Below are positions 21,277 to 27,410 of a DNA stretch of 46,139 nucleotides, in pieces. A model generated the notes under the pieces. It was not told the DNA's origin. It searched no databases and was given only the letters and a program-made list of their open reading frames with translations. The stretch spans positions 1-46,139 of the forward strand of contig NZ_JALUFF010000030.1 in NCBI RefSeq assembly GCF_027052235.1, read 5' to 3'. Numbering within the stretch: position 1 is the stretch's first letter; the number at the start of each line of letters is the position of its first letter. The position numbers and the translations under genes were made by a program. Source of the DNA: Thermococcus sp. Its GTDB lineage: Archaea; Methanobacteriota_B; Thermococci; Thermococcales; Thermococcaceae.

Positions 21277-22233
21277 ATGGACAGGGAAAGGCTTATCAAG
21301 GCTGTGGAGACGGTACTCAGAGGCGCTGGATACAAAACGGCTAGACTGGACTTTCGCGGGTCCTGCTTTGACCTCGTGGCGAGCAGGACGCTCACGCTCC
21401 TCTTCGTGAAGGTGGTCACCAACATAGACACGGTCACCGAGGAGCAGGCCGAAGATTTGAAGAGGCTCGCCAGGTTCTTCAACGCCTCCCCCATAATCGT
21501 CGGGCTGAAGAGCAAGAACGCTGAGCTTGAGGAGGGGGTAGTTTACGAGCGCTTTGGCATCTATGCCCTCCGACCCGAGACCCTCTACGATGTTCTCGTC
21601 GAAAACGAGCTACCGGCAGTCTTCGCGGAGCGCGGTGGCCTCTACGTCAGGATAAACGGGAAGCTCTTGAGGGAGCTGAGGGAGAGGCACGGCTATTCTG
21701 TGGGCGAGCTCTCCCGCCTTCTGGGCGTCTCAAGGAAGACACTCCTCAACTATGAAAAGGGCGAGCAGGCGGTCTCGCTTGACGTGGCCCTCCTCCTTGA
21801 GGACATCTTTGACGAACCCCTGGTGGAGCCGATAGACGTTCTCAACGCGAAGGTCGAGGCAAAGCTTGACCTGAAGCCCGAGACCCCGCTGGAGAGGGAG
21901 ATATTCGAGCGTCTCAGGGCACTGGGGCTCGGGCTCGTGAAGGTGAAGAAGGCCCCCTTCAACGCGGTCTCAAGGGGCGACGAGTTCAGAATACTTACCG
22001 GCATAGACGAGAAGAAGACCTCCTCAACGGTCAGAAGGGCAGAGATGGTAGCAGAGGTGGGGAGGATAATAAACTCCGAGGGCGTCTTCATCCTTGAGAA
22101 GACTAAGACCGAGGTGGTTGACAGTGTCCCGCTCATCCCGAAGGAGAGCCTCCGCGAGGTCAGGGATGCGGACGAGCTGATAAACCTGATAGAGGAGCTC
22201 AAGAAGGAGATAAAGGCACGGCTCTTCAGCTGA
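21277..22233 (+). CDS. HTH-type transcriptional regulator (archaeal COG1395 family)
   Basis: 318 residues. Residues 1-115 form an alpha/beta domain of restriction-endonuclease-like look (AVETVLRGAGYKTARLDFRG then FDLVASRTLTLLFVKVV). An XRE-type helix-turn-helix follows at about 128-180 (LRERHGYSVGELSRLLGVSRKTLLNYEKG). The C-terminal part is charged alpha/beta and ends in a helix. The family is nearly universal in Thermococcales; its regulon is unknown. A TATA element (21247-21253) lies 27 bp before the ATG and there is no ribosome site, so the message is probably leaderless. The stop overlaps the HD gene stop by 8 nt. Confidence 0.85.
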   Translation: MDRERLIKAVETVLRGAGYKTARLDFRGSCFDLVASRTLTLLFVKVVTNIDTVTEEQAEDLKRLARFFNASPIIVGLKSKNAELEEGVVYERFGIYALRPETLYDVLVENELPAVFAERGGLYVRINGKLLRELRERHGYSVGELSRLLGVSRKTLLNYEKGEQAVSLDVALLLEDIFDEPLVEPIDVLNAKVEAKLDLKPETPLEREIFERLRALGLGLVKVKKAPFNAVSRGDEFRILTGIDEKKTSSTVRRAEMVAEVGRIINSEGVFILEKTKTEVVDSVPLIPKESLREVRDADELINLIEELKKEIKARLFS

Positions 22234-23470
22234 AGAGAACGCGCCTCCAGACTTCCTCCAGCTTCTTTGCGTGTTCTTCGGGTGAGGCTATCAACACCGC
22301 CCAGCGGGGGGTCTGCCTCCTCTTGAGCGCGTTGGCCAGAGGGGTAACCCTTGATAGGGGCTGAACTTCACCGTTTTCGAGGAGAACCTTCACACCGGTC
22401 TCTTTAAGCCTGGGCTCACTAAGCATTAAGTCCGCTATGCTGAACTCAAGGATTACCTCGCCTTCGCCAGCTCCAACGGCCTCTGAGAGGCTCCTCTCAA
22501 GCTCCTGCCTTCTCCTAACGTTTTTGTACGCCGTCAGCAACTCGCGCTTCTCCTCCGCGCTCAGCTCCTCGGCGCTGACCATTACCGCAGCCTTGTAGAG
22601 CTTCCTGTACTTTACCCTCCTCACGAGCTCCGCAGGGAGACCCTCCAGGTCCTCAAGTTCAACGAGAACCCTGCAGTCCGTCATCTTCCAGAAATCCCAG
22701 AGATGGCCCTCCTCAAGGGCAAACTCAAGGGCCCGGGTGAGCATCCCCTCAGCTATCTTAACCGTGTGATGGAAGTAAACCCTCGAATACATCAGCGAGC
22801 GCGCCACCATCATACCTTCAACCGCCTCTATCCCCTTCTCGTCAACGACGAGCTCGTCGCCGTGTATCCTCAGCACCTTAAGGAGCCTTTCAAGGTCTAT
22901 TATGCCGTGGGCGACGCCCGTGTAGTGAGCATCCCTAACGAGATAATCGAGCTGGTCAACGTCAACGCCCCCGTGGAGCATCTGGCCGAGGTAAGGCCTC
23001 TTCGCCCTGCCGAGTATAAGCTCCGCGACCTCCTTCGGGTCAAGGCCGTAGCTTGAAAGTATCTCCCCTATTCTTCCCCCATCTTCTTCCTCTGTTATGT
23101 TTATCCTCCCGGTTATTATGTCCTGACCGAGGCGCATATGGTCGCGCTCTTTGACGTAGTGCTTGTAGATGCTCTCGAAGGTGTGACTGAAGGGGCCGTG
23201 TCCTATATCGTGAAGCAGGGCACCAGCCTGAAGGAGCATCCCCTCCTCCTCGCTCAGACCAACTTCCCCTGAGAGTCTTCTCGCCAGGTTCCATGCTCCA
23301 AGGGAGTGCTCAAACCTGCTGTGGTTGGCCCCGGGGTAGACAATGTAAGCTAAGCCGAGTTGTCTGATGTGCCTCAGCCTCTGAAACTCCGGCGTCTTAA
23401 GGATGTCGAAAACCATACCCGAGACCCGCATACTGCCATGAATTGCGTCGTGGATTATCTTACCTCTCAC
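22226..23470 (-). CDS. HD-domain phosphohydrolase (dNTPase/SAMHD1-like)
   Basis: 414 residues. N-terminal HD domain: first His55 in SRFEHSLGAWNLA, the HD pair at 87-88 in LLHDIGHGPFSH, and the final Asp in GGVDVDQLDYLVRD. The DxxxYxxRD-type ending and IHDAIHG start are characteristic of deoxynucleoside triphosphate triphosphohydrolase-like proteins. It probably hydrolyses dNTPs or another nucleotide, though many archaeal members are untested. GTG 23470 fits GGTGAT upstream; GTG 23479 or ATG 23476 are alternatives. Promoter: CTTATTTAAAAC just upstream. Confidence 0.88.
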   Translation of the reverse strand: MRGKIIHDAIHGSMRVSGMVFDILKTPEFQRLRHIRQLGLAYIVYPGANHSRFEHSLGAWNLARRLSGEVGLSEEEGMLLQAGALLHDIGHGPFSHTFESIYKHYVKERDHMRLGQDIITGRINITEEEDGGRIGEILSSYGLDPKEVAELILGRAKRPYLGQMLHGGVDVDQLDYLVRDAHYTGVAHGIIDLERLLKVLRIHGDELVVDEKGIEAVEGMMVARSLMYSRVYFHHTVKIAEGMLTRALEFALEEGHLWDFWKMTDCRVLVELEDLEGLPAELVRRVKYRKLYKAAVMVSAEELSAEEKRELLTAYKNVRRRQELERSLSEAVGAGEGEVILEFSIADLMLSEPRLKETGVKVLLENGEVQPLSRVTPLANALKRRQTPRWAVLIASPEEHAKKLEEVWRRVLFS

Positions 23471-23533
23471 AACCATCACCCGCTGAAAATGTGAGAAGAG
23501 TTTTAAATAAGTTTTCGGCGATATGACAAGAAT

Positions 23534-24817
23534 TCATGAACCTTTGCCGGCTATGTATATTCTCTGTGTCTTGCCGAACTTCACAGGAAGTCCTTCCCTG
23601 AGCTTTTCCGCGGGGACCGCTTCAATTATTAACTCCGCCTGACCCGTCTCCTCGACCTCATAGCGAACTGGATTGTTGGCCTCGTATATCATCTCCCGGA
23701 CTTCGTCCTCGATTCCGGCCGGTTTCTTCCCTGTATAGGCCACCCTTATGATTGCCCTCGGCTTGGGGTTCTGTGGGGAAAGCGGGTAGTAGATTATCAC
23801 GAAGTCCACTAAATCGGGGTGGTTATATACTATTTCCATGACCTGATCTATGTGAAGCTTTGCTCCCGCGAGGCTTATGACGTCCTTGAGGCGGATTATG
23901 TTCCTCACCTCACCGTTCTCAACCCTCGCGAGGTCTCCAATGTCGTAGTTGAAGAGGGGCAACCCCGTCAGCTCACCCTCGCGCATAACCTTGGTTATGT
24001 AAATCCTCTTGTAGTTCTCGTAGCTGTCGCCGGTGTCCTTGAGAACCAGTATCGATTCCTTAAACTGGAACGGGAACGTTTTTCTGCGCTCTATTACACG
24101 ATAGCCAGTTATATCATCCTCTGTTGAACCGAAGTTATCAATGATGACTGCATTCGGGAAGAGCTCAAGGGTCGCCTTGGCGAGCTCTGGTGTGAGAGTT
24201 TCACCGCCAACCACCAGGGTCTGAATGTCGTTCCTTATTGACTCAGGAAGGGTCAGGCCGAGATTGTAAGCGGTGGCCGTGAGGCAGAAGAGGGCAGTTG
24301 GACGGATGTCCTCAAGCTCCCTGAGAAGGAGCTTTTTGTCCAGGAGATATCTTACAGGGATCTGGTAATAGGCGCTCTTGACGTTGAGGAACTCGAAGCT
24401 CCCAAGGGCAAAGACACCCGACGACGATGGGAGCTGGGGAAAGAACGACGCTATCCTGTCGCCTTTGTCCATGTACTCTCTTATCCACTCCTCTACCTGT
24501 CTGGCGGTTCTGGCCTTATCGTCCCTCGTGTAGGGTATTCTCTTTGGTTTCCCTGTGGTTCCGCTGGTTCTCATAATCGCATGAAAGACCTTCCTCTCTC
24601 TGATGTAGTCCGGCCACACGGACTCGGTGTTGTAGAGGTCGTGGGGCTTTATGACAACGTTATCGGTAAGCTTCTCCAGATCCTCAGGTTTAAGGCTCTC
24701 AATGTCAATTCCATCAAACTTTTCCCTCCAGAAAGGAGTGGTCTCTAGGGCTTTCTTCAGGGTGTACCTGAAGTCCCCCACGCTTTCCCGGTCAATCCTT
24801 CCCATTACCAATCCCAT
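23534..24817 (-). CDS. Phenylacetate-CoA ligase-like (CapK/PaaK family) adenylate-forming enzyme
   Basis: 427 residues of the ANL superfamily. The phosphate-binding loop is TSGTTGKPKRIPYTRDD (84-100), with FGSTED (adenine/acid contact) and FNYDIGDLARVENGEV. A C-terminal lid domain (LAGAKLHIDQVMEIVY, and a terminal KFGKTQRIY with the late lysine) is present, so all catalytic parts look intact. It should activate an aryl or acyl carboxylate as AMP ester and pass it to a thiol. ATG 24817 has AGGTGG upstream. Divergent from a second, degenerate relative, with which it probably works. Confidence 0.88.
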   Translation of the reverse strand: MGLVMGRIDRESVGDFRYTLKKALETTPFWREKFDGIDIESLKPEDLEKLTDNVVIKPHDLYNTESVWPDYIRERKVFHAIMRTSGTTGKPKRIPYTRDDKARTARQVEEWIREYMDKGDRIASFFPQLPSSSGVFALGSFEFLNVKSAYYQIPVRYLLDKKLLLRELEDIRPTALFCLTATAYNLGLTLPESIRNDIQTLVVGGETLTPELAKATLELFPNAVIIDNFGSTEDDITGYRVIERRKTFPFQFKESILVLKDTGDSYENYKRIYITKVMREGELTGLPLFNYDIGDLARVENGEVRNIIRLKDVISLAGAKLHIDQVMEIVYNHPDLVDFVIIYYPLSPQNPKPRAIIRVAYTGKKPAGIEDEVREMIYEANNPVRYEVEETGQAELIIEAVPAEKLREGLPVKFGKTQRIYIAGKGS

Positions 24818-24937
24818 AGAAGGCCACCTGTTAATGTTTCAAACCTCATTCTATTAATATTTAACGGAATTCCATGCACACCGAACACTGAAGTTCCCGG
24901 ATAAACCTTTTATAGTAGTTCGCCATAATAACCTATC

Positions 24938-25981
24938 ATGATGTACGATTCCCTTACTGCTGTAATCGAAGACAATCCACTGAGTGTTTCTGAGGAATTC
25001 ACAAAGGACTATCTGAGGAGGATTTTTGAGTTTCATTTCGAGAGAACTCCCTACTGGAGAAGCGTGGCGAGACGCCTTAAGCCCGATCTGGATGAAATCT
25101 TCCAAGGGAACATCAGGAGAATCTTTGAAAACATATTTAACTCTGGACTTGCCGTTGATGAGGACTACCTGCGGGCCAACTGGCTCGACTTCGTTCCCGA
25201 CAACTACCCGGGAAGGATAAGGTTTTACCAGTCTTCGGGAACGACGAGGGAGAGGGCAATCGGCCACTGGGATGCCAACTATCTAAGGGTTCTCCTCCCG
25301 TATTTAAGGAGGGCAATTGACGAGCTTTACCATCTCGATTCAACTTACAGTGACCATCAGATGCGCGCCATAGCCCACGGTCCATACGGCTGGTACCAGG
25401 ACGAGATAAGTGAGCTAGTGTGGAGTTACGGAGGTGTTCTTTACTTCATCGGAATGGAAACCGAAGGTCTGAAGAGGGTTCTGAGGGAACAGGGTTTGGA
25501 GGCGGTTCTGAGACTGCTTGATCCTCTTGTGAGGTACACTCACAGGGTTATGGAGAGGGATAGGATAAACACCGTGAGGACAGCTCCCCAGCTGATGACC
25601 CTCTTTGAGGACTACAGCGACGGGATAGAGACCGCAATAGTGAGTGGCGTTGGTGTAAACCAGGATTTTCTAACCTATCTTGAGGAGACCTTCAGGGAAA
25701 CCCGGATAGTCCCGCTCTACGGCTATTACCTCTTCGGTGATATCGTTGGTCTTCACCGGAGGGGAGAGTTCCACTACTACCCGAATTATCCAACCACCCT
25801 AATATTTCCGGTCAAGGTGGAGGACGAAGTTCGGATTGTGAAGAGGGGGGAGAGGGGTAAGAACGCATTCATAATCGCCAGGCCCGAGGTTCTTGTGGTC
25901 AAACTTGAGAACGAGACGGCAGAGCGCGTTCCCCCTTCAGGGCCCTTTAAGTGGGAGGGCTTTGGGAACCCCCTCAGGTAG
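24938..25981 (+). CDS. Divergent adenylate-forming-like protein without lid domain
   Basis: 347 residues. It shares with its divergent neighbour the N-terminal layout (RRIFEFHFERTPYWRSVARR) and the loop SSGTT (99-103), but the loop continues RERAIGHWD, without the lysine and glycine of active PaaK enzymes. YGYYLFGDIVG takes the place of the FGSTED block. It ends where the mobile lid domain should start. It resembles the PaaK/LuxE group distantly. It may be a scaffold, regulator or acyl carrier-loading partner; activity is uncertain. TATA at 24908-24915 is 26 bp before the ATG and no ribosome site exists (leaderless). The DUF835 gene follows after 9 nt. Confidence 0.65.
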   Translation: MMYDSLTAVIEDNPLSVSEEFTKDYLRRIFEFHFERTPYWRSVARRLKPDLDEIFQGNIRRIFENIFNSGLAVDEDYLRANWLDFVPDNYPGRIRFYQSSGTTRERAIGHWDANYLRVLLPYLRRAIDELYHLDSTYSDHQMRAIAHGPYGWYQDEISELVWSYGGVLYFIGMETEGLKRVLREQGLEAVLRLLDPLVRYTHRVMERDRINTVRTAPQLMTLFEDYSDGIETAIVSGVGVNQDFLTYLEETFRETRIVPLYGYYLFGDIVGLHRRGEFHYYPNYPTTLIFPVKVEDEVRIVKRGERGKNAFIIARPEVLVVKLENETAERVPPSGPFKWEGFGNPLR

Positions 25982-25990
25982 GGTGGGAAC

Positions 25991-27088
25991 ATGAGCTGGG
26001 TACAATACCTGCTGGTTACTGAATTTATCGCCGTTGTTCTGGCCGATATAACGGCCGCGATTCTCGTGTTTAGGGTGTACCTCCAGAACAGAAGAACGTC
26101 GGCACTCGCTTTCTCGCTGGCATGGGTCTTTGACTTGATCTTTGTCGTTGCGTCTATGAAACCCAACGAGCCCCTTATCGAGGCCATCGGTCTCCTGTCG
26201 CTTCCAACCTTTGGGGGTCTCCTTCTCTATGGTTCAGTGAAGTTCCTTGAGGAAGAATCCCTGAGCGTCAGCCACAGAACCCTATCCCTCTTCGCAACGA
26301 TGCCCCCCGCATTCATGCTATACATGCTCTCGGTTTACTACTACACCGGGGACCCCGTCTGGACCGCCAAGATAGCTTCGTCCCTGGGAATAAGCGGGGT
26401 CTTCGTCGTTAGCGGTGGGATGTTGCTGTGGGAGGTCAAGGAAATATATAAGAGTGCCGTTAAGTACCTCTCCATAGGGGTTATACTCTTTGGTCTGCAC
26501 CTGATTCCCGCGGCTATATTCGGTAAAACAGAGCTCTACAAGGTTGCTGGTTTTACGCTGTCAACAGTGCTGATAATTCTCATGGTTTGGGCTATGATAA
26601 AGTTAACGTCCTCCAAGGCGTTCCAAGTAGTCGGCCCCAACGGTGAAGTCGAACTCGACCTCAAACCCGGTGTGATGATAGTCGATACAAGGGACTACCC
26701 CCAGATTAGGGAGCACTTAAGAGACGTCCCTGTTCTGGCATTTTTGAGGGATATCTCAGACGTCCCGGAGAAATGGGAGACCTACTTCGTCACGACAATC
26801 CCCTTCGAGGGTAAATTCAAGGGAACGATAACTCCCACGAACCTCGCCAAGATGACCGAGCTGAGCTACCAGTACCTTGAGGCCCTATCAAAGGCTGGAA
26901 AGAAGGGCATAATCCTGATAGACTGCTTCGAATACCTAATGGTTTACAACTCCTGGGAGAGCCTGATGAAGTTCCTCTCAAAACTCAGGGACATAATTCT
27001 GGTTAACAAAGGCACTCTTATCATAGTTCTCGAAAAGGGGAGTCTCAGCGAACACAAGTACCTTCAGCTTAGGAAGCTTCTTGGCTAA
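25991..27088 (+). CDS. Membrane protein with C-terminal DUF835 domain
   Basis: 365 residues. Residues 1-205 contain about seven hydrophobic segments. Residues about 215-365 form a soluble DUF835 domain (GVMIVDTRDYPQIREHL, VPVLAFLRDISDVPEKWETYF, GIILIDCFEYLMVYNSWESL). DUF835 is common in Thermococcales, often attached to membrane or regulatory parts; it looks like a nucleotide-free alpha/beta signalling fold, and its role is unknown. The gene has a good ribosome site (GGGTGGG) and is co-transcribed with the preceding adenylate-forming-like protein, suggesting a membrane sensor or anchor for it. Confidence 0.75.
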   Translation: MSWVQYLLVTEFIAVVLADITAAILVFRVYLQNRRTSALAFSLAWVFDLIFVVASMKPNEPLIEAIGLLSLPTFGGLLLYGSVKFLEEESLSVSHRTLSLFATMPPAFMLYMLSVYYYTGDPVWTAKIASSLGISGVFVVSGGMLLWEVKEIYKSAVKYLSIGVILFGLHLIPAAIFGKTELYKVAGFTLSTVLIILMVWAMIKLTSSKAFQVVGPNGEVELDLKPGVMIVDTRDYPQIREHLRDVPVLAFLRDISDVPEKWETYFVTTIPFEGKFKGTITPTNLAKMTELSYQYLEALSKAGKKGIILIDCFEYLMVYNSWESLMKFLSKLRDIILVNKGTLIIVLEKGSLSEHKYLQLRKLLG

Positions 27089-27104
27089 TCCGAACTTGAC
27101 AAGG

Positions 27105-27113
27105 TTTTTATAC
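27105..27113 (+). promoter_or_regulatory. Promoter of H/ACA RNA
   Basis: TTTTTATAC preceded by GACAAGG (BRE-like), centre 27109. Transcription 25-26 bp downstream would begin at about 27134-27135, exactly the first base of the first RNA stem. Confidence 0.7.
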
Positions 27114-27133
27114 ACCTTTTCTGAACCAAGCAA

Positions 27134-27348
27134 TGCCCCCGCGCGAGGACCCCGGGGAGAATGAACCGGGGGGCGATGCGGGGGCTACAGCCCGGTCTCA
27201 GCGAGGTCCCCGCGGGAGGGCCTTCCGCGTTACGGAGCGCGATGACCGCGGGAAACCCAGACCGGGCACACTTCTGGCCCGCCTGGGTTAACCCGCCCGA
27301 GTTCGCCGAAGGGCACCGATGGGGGCGGGGGTTACGGGCGGGCCACAC
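27134..27348 (+). ncRNA. Three-hairpin H/ACA guide RNA
   Basis: A very G+C-rich, non-coding block in an A+T-richer gap folds into three consecutive H/ACA units. Hairpin I: lower stem 27135-27142/27178-27185, upper stem 27150-27155/27166-27171, a GA..UGA K-loop at 27156-27165, ACA 27187-27189. Hairpin II: 27190-27198/27259-27267, upper 27209-27215/27246-27252, a K-turn (GAG...GATGA), ACA 27268-27270. Hairpin III: 27276-27283/27337-27344, upper 27292-27298/27323-27329, a K-turn, ACA 27345-27347. In each, exactly 15 bases separate the upper stem from ACA, the spacing needed by Cbf5. Such RNAs direct pseudouridylation of rRNA with Cbf5, Nop10, Gar1 and L7Ae. Ends are predicted, not mapped. Confidence 0.9.
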
Positions 27349-27410
27349 CTTGAGAGTTCTCCAGCAACTCTTGGAAAGTTTCCAAAATTTAATTACCTCT
27401 CCATAAGGTG
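27345..27410. repeat. Nested inverted repeats after the H/ACA RNA
   Basis: ACACCTT (27345-27351) and AAGGTGT (27404-27410) are perfect inverted arms. Between them lie AGAGTT/AACTCT (27353-27358/27366-27371) and the perfect hairpin TTGGAAA-G-TTTCCAA (27371-27385), followed by A/T-rich bases. The first arm starts on the third ACA box. They may form a termination or 3'-end processing structure for the guide RNA, or a small separate element. Confidence 0.4.

Follow-up and report, generated by a model that had tools for sequence, protein, structure and literature searches.

The stretch of DNA analysed here (46,139 nucleotides of contig NZ_JALUFF010000030.1 from Thermococcus sp., in the following called the window) contains a divergent locus of three genes, which encode a complete PaaK-like adenylate-forming (ANL) enzyme (P1), a shorter ANL protein without the C-terminal lid (P2) and a predicted membrane protein (P3). 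P2 belongs to the EhpF-type lidless ANL proteins, where it forms a branch of its own under strong selection, and its ATP site is remodelled, not decaying. Regarding function, it is tentatively assumed from the sequence that P1 would activate a carboxylic acid, that P2 would act as a remodelled accessory or hand-off subunit, and that both together would form one functional unit, which we regard as a serious possibility rather than a probable outcome. P1 (427 amino acids) is located on the minus strand at 23534..24817 and is separated by a spacer of 120 bp (24818..24937) from P2 (347 amino acids, 24938..25981) and P3 (365 amino acids, 25991..27088), both on the plus strand. A preceding sequence-only reading had described a PaaK-like enzyme facing a shorter relative and a DUF835 protein, and all three open reading frames were recovered where it had placed them.

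P2 has no match in Pfam or NCBIfam. A profile of P2 searched against solved structures matched EhpF with an E-value of 3.6e-6 over residues 20-345, the sole other chain listed reaching an E-value of 0.11. The AlphaFold2 (AF2) model of P2, predicted with a pLDDT of 87.5 and a pTM of 0.87, resembled the EhpF structures 3hgu, 3hgv and 3l2k with Z-scores of 27.3, 27.2 and 27.1 over 322, 316 and 320 residues, compared to about 22-24 for PaaK N-domains (24.0 for that of PaaK1). The part of PaaK beyond approximately residue 325 has no counterpart in P2, which, judged from the model, derives from an ANL protein and ends where the lid would begin, as had been suggested before. Haloarchaeal relatives matched P2 in tblastn with 23-24% over 96% (E-values of 4e-7 and 4e-6), and in a quick tree P2 clustered with EhpF-like relatives on a long branch away from P1, the inner placement among the relatives being supported at 83 and 93, both unstarred. 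A pairwise BLASTP comparison of P1 and P2 was not significant (E-value of 0.11), whereas the profile-profile comparison was (E-value of 4.5e-7). The ratio of nonsynonymous to synonymous substitutions (dN/dS, NG86) of P2 amounted to 0.057-0.169 in 13 close pairs, compared to 0.014-0.069 for the neighbouring HD-domain gene in the same pairs; these ratios are rough, with a dS above 1 for P2 in two pairs and no computable dS for P1 and P3 of the pair G047-G063. The purifying selection, the EhpF-like placement in the tree and the non-significant BLASTP comparison rule out that P2 is a decayed copy of P1, so that the former description of the short protein as a degenerate relative of P1 does not hold.

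Several other relationships of P2 were considered and rejected. The match to PH0802 (2dt4, single-sequence E-value of 0.0021) was short and reached an E-value of 0.11 with the profile, which placed EhpF on top, and matches to regulatory chains of cAMP-dependent kinase (single-sequence E-values of 0.033 and above) were likewise dropped as short. A LuxE-like mechanism via an acylated cysteine was excluded by the absence of a conserved cysteine, the best column comprising 5/54 Cys and all others at most 3. A phage origin was discarded as well, P2 being unmatched in phage records and, by two peptide patterns, in viral contigs.

The remodelling is most apparent in the loop corresponding to ANL motif A3 (SSGTTRER, residues 99-106, 25232..25255 on the plus strand). 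Compared to TSGTTGKPK in P1, the loop of P2 reads SSGTTRERA in the window, which places Arg at the Gly position and Ala at the Lys position. Among 54 P2 sequences (partial genes excluded), SSGTT (S99-T103) and Arg106 at the Pro position of the loop were invariant, while the Gly position comprised 45 Arg and 9 Gly, and the Lys position (107) comprised 43 Ala, 8 Ser, 2 Lys and 1 Gly; both Gly and Lys were retained in two sequences. The sequence-only reading had noted an SSGTT loop that lost its glycine and lysine, and this holds true for SSGTT throughout and for the loss in the window, but not for the nine P2 proteins with Gly and the two with Lys. The Thr of motif A5 was replaced in every case (46 Tyr, 7 Phe, 1 Ser), the Asp of motif A7 (position 326) was Glu in 52 sequences and Asp and Asn in one each, and R330 and E324 were invariant. 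Since Arg106 is invariant and the Gly and Lys positions vary among these few residues, the loop represents a conserved variant rather than the outcome of random decay; together with the strong purifying selection, this characterizes P2 as remodelled.

In P1, by contrast with the altered motifs of P2, the residues T84-G89, K92, E233, D295, R309, D312, G318 and K416 were kept in 54/54 sequences, and the A5 position was Thr or Ser in all of them. Motifs A3, A5, A7, A8 and A10 as well as the lid lysine are present, which agrees with the earlier statement that the enzyme has all motifs. Since the lid lysine K416 and the hinge are intact, P1 should be able to complete both half-reactions. P1 matched the AMP-binding family PF00501 with an E-value of 5.6e-13 (48.9 bits, cut-off 29.9). 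On plasmids, P1 gave only four weak partial matches.

The connection between P1 and P2 is based on their distribution in 94 whole genomes of the Thermococcaceae, which belong to a sample of 115 genomes of the phylum, 21 of them outside the family. P1 was found in 56/94 genomes. A single-sequence search placed P2 in 57 genomes, and two weak hits (G040, G006) were dropped, which were short, showed 23-32% identity, were absent from the profile search and were taken as chance. With a 19-row profile, P2 was detected in 56/115 genomes of the phylum, exactly those that carry P1, and in none of the 21 genomes outside the family. Not a single one of the 94 genomes contained P1 without P2 or P2 without P1, if the broken P2 of G077 is counted as present; in G058, P2 consists of an end piece alone on another contig. 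Neither gene was found in 38 genomes, although in G088 and G091 the contigs end at the locus, so that absence is unproven there. Frequent separation of the genes had been named beforehand as the observation that would speak against a joint system, and for P1 and P2 it did not occur. A further search of genome contigs with two peptide patterns, by which close relatives alone are detectable, yielded 30 stretches, of which 15 were relatives, all from Thermococcaceae or Thermococci judged by title.

The order HTH-HD-P1|P2-P3 was identical in 21/21 loci (the window and 20 of the other 55 genomes with the pair) and is kept across four genera; an additional open reading frame lies inside the block in three loci (L074, L075, L078), and P2 is broken in two (L069, L079). 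Considering this order together with the dN/dS of P2, the conservation of the locus is far above chance. The 32 HD loci without the pair contained no match to P1 or P2 at E-values up to 1e-5. In eight of them (G018, G024, G027, G028, G049, G054, G066, G069), MoeA, which in the window lies beyond P3, is encountered approximately 0.6-0.7 kb past the HD gene with none of P1-P3 between. Four others (G016, G023, G040, G052) showed a full-length P3 frame beside the HD gene, while P1 was gone and remnants of P2 were left in the gap (residues 5-73 and 93-110 in G016, 28-88 and 92-107 in G023, 5-73 and 92-110 in G040, 305-337 in G052; E-values of 2e-3 to 2e-6 when the gap alone was searched). Accordingly, in at least two lineages the loss of P1 was accompanied by the loss of P2, whereas P3 was retained. 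The remaining 20/32 loci showed neither pattern or were too short.

In a tree of the HD gene with 89 rows (53 with and 36 without the pair), the pair required 13 changes, at least six of them lying on supported branches. Without the rows of G088 and G091, whose contigs end beside the HD gene, 11 changes remained, and P1 and P2 were discordant in 0/87 rows, while P1 and P3 were discordant in four at the locus; in this count, P2 of G058 and P3 of G050, G058, G062 and G085 were entered by hand. The evolutionary distances of P1 and P2 in 46 genomes correlated beyond those of the HD gene with a partial r of 0.80, a value that 0/300 permutations attained, and with 0.55 once P3 was also removed. Altogether, the proposed functional unit of P1 and P2 is supported by their sharing of the same 56 genomes, the absence of discordance, the joint loss, and the intact motifs of P1 next to the altered ones of P2.

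A number of observations weigh against this assignment. In the closed genome G077 (L079), P2 is distributed over three frames, and in the metagenome bin G068 (L069) it contains one in-frame TGA, while P1 and P3 are kept in both; either recent loss or sequencing error can explain these cases. Of the supported contrasts in the tree, five are independent, and although all five are concordant, the sign test gives a p of 0.0625, which is no more than suggestive. The joint absence of P1 and P2 is weak evidence, as one deletion could remove adjacent genes. The distances of P1 and P3 correlate equally (0.80), and the correlation of P1 and P2 may stem from the block being inherited as a whole. In the spacer, TTTTATA precedes P2 and TTAAATAT on the minus strand precedes P1, so that each direction has its own TATA-like box, read by eye; similar elements were seen by eye, though not counted, in the spacers of many relatives, and P1 and P2 appear to possess separate promoters. 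Regarding the ATP site, P2 may still bind nucleotides since SSGTT and an acidic A7 residue are retained, and since the loop Lys is absent also from 4/11 aligned relatives, its loss alone is weakly informative.

P3 begins 9 bp after P2 on the same strand, and both are probably made from one transcript. It matched DUF835 (PF05763) with 93.4 bits (cut-off 33.1), and its AF2 model (mean pLDDT 85.7, pTM 0.60) contains seven long predicted helices at residues 3-33, 36-54, 61-88, 104-119, 124-153, 155-177 and 181-206, followed by the C-terminal DUF835 domain, which bears out the seven-helix DUF835 protein proposed before. In Foldseek, P3 gave only weak matches (best E-value of 0.007), the helices matching GPCR-type bundles and the C-terminal domain matching KaiC/FlaH. 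The Z-scores of 12-15 for the GPCR-type bundles are near chance level for helical bundles and were not counted as homology. According to a passage in PMC5847659, DUF835 is listed as an inactive KaiC domain, which in other archaea occurs in fusions with response-regulator receivers. P3-like proteins were present in 88/94 genomes of the family at E-values of at most 1e-30, with or without the pair. Downstream, an Rfam HgcG RNA (RF00064, H/ACA-type; 27080-27352, plus strand, 210.6 bits, cut-off 77) starts within the last codons of P3 and spans most of the GC-rich stretch that follows this gene.

For the proposed unit of P1 and P2, the following course is conceivable. P1 would bind ATP and a carboxylic acid and yield an acyl-adenylate. 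P2, with its remodelled ATP contacts, most likely adenylates poorly by itself; it would associate with P1 or with the acyl group once activated, and would gate, stabilise or pass on the product. P3, receptor-shaped and with an inactive KaiC domain, might anchor or read out the pair, and might also work without it. A precedent for two ANL proteins dividing the half-reactions is described for PtmA1/PtmA2 in a passage of PMC6594144. The membrane link via P3 is the weakest part of the proposal: the suggestion of such a link agrees with P3 accompanying the pair in 21/21 loci, but not with its persistence in the four genomes where P1 is gone and P2 is a remnant. Since P3 persists in these genomes, it is able to work without the pair.

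A somewhat less probable explanation, though one to be taken seriously, would be that P2, though lidless, adenylates an acid itself as EhpF does, Arg106 taking over the function of the loop Lys, and that P1 and P2 work one after the other or each on a different acid, with the acceptor, an aldehyde dehydrogenase (ALDH) or another protein, encoded elsewhere. The invariant SSGTT, R330 and E324 and the two P2 proteins with both loop Gly and Lys would fit, as would the surroundings of relatives with intact ATP motifs. In tblastn against plasmids, P2 matched six distant records (Halalkalicoccus, Halomarina, Streptomyces), three of which cover more than 90% of P2 and some of which are annotated as arylcarboxylate reductase, and a haloarchaeal relative as query retrieved 28 plasmid records, many of them near-copies, including a Pantoea gene beside phenazine genes. 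An ALDH gene directly adjoins the relative in 7/12 plasmid loci (after it in L178, L181, L182, L183, L184 and L186, before it in L189) and lies approximately 2 kb off in an eighth (L185). A passage in PMC11278526 uses the gene names ehpF/ehpG and describes EhpG as an ALDH, and in a passage of PMC10179220 GriC is described as forming an acyl-AMP that GriD reduces. On the other hand, the A5 Thr of P2 is lost, its A7 Asp is Glu and its loop Gly is Arg in 45/54 sequences. Moreover, an ALDH of the EhpG/GriD type adjoins P2 in 0/21 loci, where P1 and P3 are the neighbours; farther open reading frames were partly identified, and no genome-wide search for ALDH was made.

Two further explanations, in which the membrane protein takes part, are both unlikely. 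The pair could make or consume an acyl signal that P3 senses with receptor-like helices and an inactive KaiC output. The gap of 9 bp, the presence of P3 in all 21 loci with the pair, the resemblance of the model to GPCR-type bundles and the receiver fusions of DUF835 in other archaea would agree with such a signalling module, whereas P3 without the pair in four genomes, P3-like proteins in 88/94 genomes regardless of the pair, and Z-scores within the chance range for helical bundles argue against it. With no better prospects, the pair could be an enzyme-pseudoenzyme pair specific to the Thermococcaceae, in which P1 needs P2, and P2, having given up adenylation, receives the acyl-adenylate or acyl group and loads it or signals via P3. 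If true, this would mean that archaea possess a membrane system which makes or senses an activated acid. Lastly, that P1 and P2-P3 are independent neighbours sharing a divergent promoter region alone would fit the separate facing TATA-like boxes and the intact P1 beside a broken P2 in G077, but is improbable in view of 0/94 genomes in which either P1 or P2 occurs without the other and of an arrangement kept across four genera.

The genes flanking the trio encode an HD-domain phosphohydrolase (22226..23479, minus strand), which by its domain match and the pair-less loci is a stable neighbour also present without the trio, and an HTH_3 regulator (21277..22233, plus strand), which by its domain match and neighbouring loci is the usual companion of the HD gene. 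Both are convergent (21277-23479) and remain close in 24/32 loci without the pair, while in genus g3 the HD gene was found alone, without HTH_3, in five loci with wide flanks. P1-P3 gave no match in PADLOC, on which basis a defence system was rejected, and the flanking HD and HTH genes weakly matched dGTPase and HTH models.

Some of the plasmid loci were noted in their own right. On the haloarchaeal plasmids L178 (8977-11593) and L181 (8986-11434), an EhpF-like gene is followed by an ALDH gene, and judged by its gene content each pair is likely an archaeal two-gene carboxylic acid reductase. The pair in L178 has a sodium:solute symporter gene upstream and an SDR gene downstream, and the open reading frames of L181 look alike. 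In a Streptomyces angustmyceticus plasmid (L187, 3441-4523), an EhpF-like 'arylcarboxylate reductase' lies amid menaquinone genes of the futalosine pathway, and in L179, L180 and L188 the relatives adjoin polyketide synthase genes. An unannotated Streptantibioticus cattleyicolor plasmid (L189, 1213-7336) contains an ALDH-containing and an EhpF-like open reading frame between two B12-binding radical SAM genes.

With these results, an archaeal protein without a name in Pfam or NCBIfam is linked to the EhpF-type lidless adenylating subunits of bacterial antibiotic pathways, as a form with changed ATP contacts and with a full ANL enzyme as neighbour instead of a reductase. The pair offers concrete tests of how adenylation might be lost in ANL proteins as these turn into partners, and genetics exists for laboratory Thermococcus strains. 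In addition, one membrane protein of the DUF835 family, to which Pfam assigns no function, is tied to an enzyme pair in Thermococcus. In titles and abstract beginnings of the literature on EhpF, EhpG and GriC, no such ANL pair appeared beyond the cited papers, and among the papers searched none matched on Thermococcus ANL or F390 enzymes or on ANL pseudoenzymes.

Compared to known systems, P2 is closest to EhpF of the Pantoea phenazine pathway, with which it shares a full-length match and the lidless fold of the ANL N-domain. EhpF-type proteins are reportedly the subunits that adenylate the acid in carboxylic acid reductases encoded by two genes, a chemistry that has been proposed for EhpF. 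EhpF has GGTTG, YGST and ERD, and its gene directly precedes an ALDH gene; P2 instead has SSGTT(R/G)xR, YGx(Y/F) and ExE and no ALDH neighbour. In the aligned relatives, GGTxG, YG[NS]T and ERD occurred in 11/11, as did a tail of the form EG[VIL]Y, and the loop Lys in 7/11, whereas the thermococcal P2 proteins lack the GGTxG, YGxT and ERD set, and EG(V/I/L)Y occurred in 0/19 P2 open reading frames (L074 ends in EGVSC, L080 in EGVTC). P2 is distantly related to the products of the Streptomyces plasmid genes annotated as arylcarboxylate reductase, and GriC is linked to P2 through a passage of the cited paper, not by its own sequence. These reductases differ by GGTxG, YGNT and ERD and by polyketide synthase or menaquinone neighbours, with ALDH beside other relatives, and unlike P2 they have no full ANL enzyme and DUF835 protein alongside.

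P1 is similar to the branch of PaaK, the phenylacetate-CoA ligase, in its size and in the key residues of its motifs, the lid lysine among them, but scores far under the cut-offs of the named equivalogs, with 26.3 bits against 646.3 for PaaK, of which it is not a member by score, and 52 bits against 300 for the DVU_1553 family. PtmA2 of the platensimycin pathway keeps its lid, and in this it differs from P2, which has none. The likeness to PtmA1/PtmA2 lies in two ANL proteins that apparently split the half-reactions, as described in the passage of PMC6594144. P3 shares with the archaeal DUF835 (inactive KaiC) proteins a domain above the Pfam cut-off, but differs from them in the fusion of this domain to a seven-helix membrane part and in its tie to an ANL pair.

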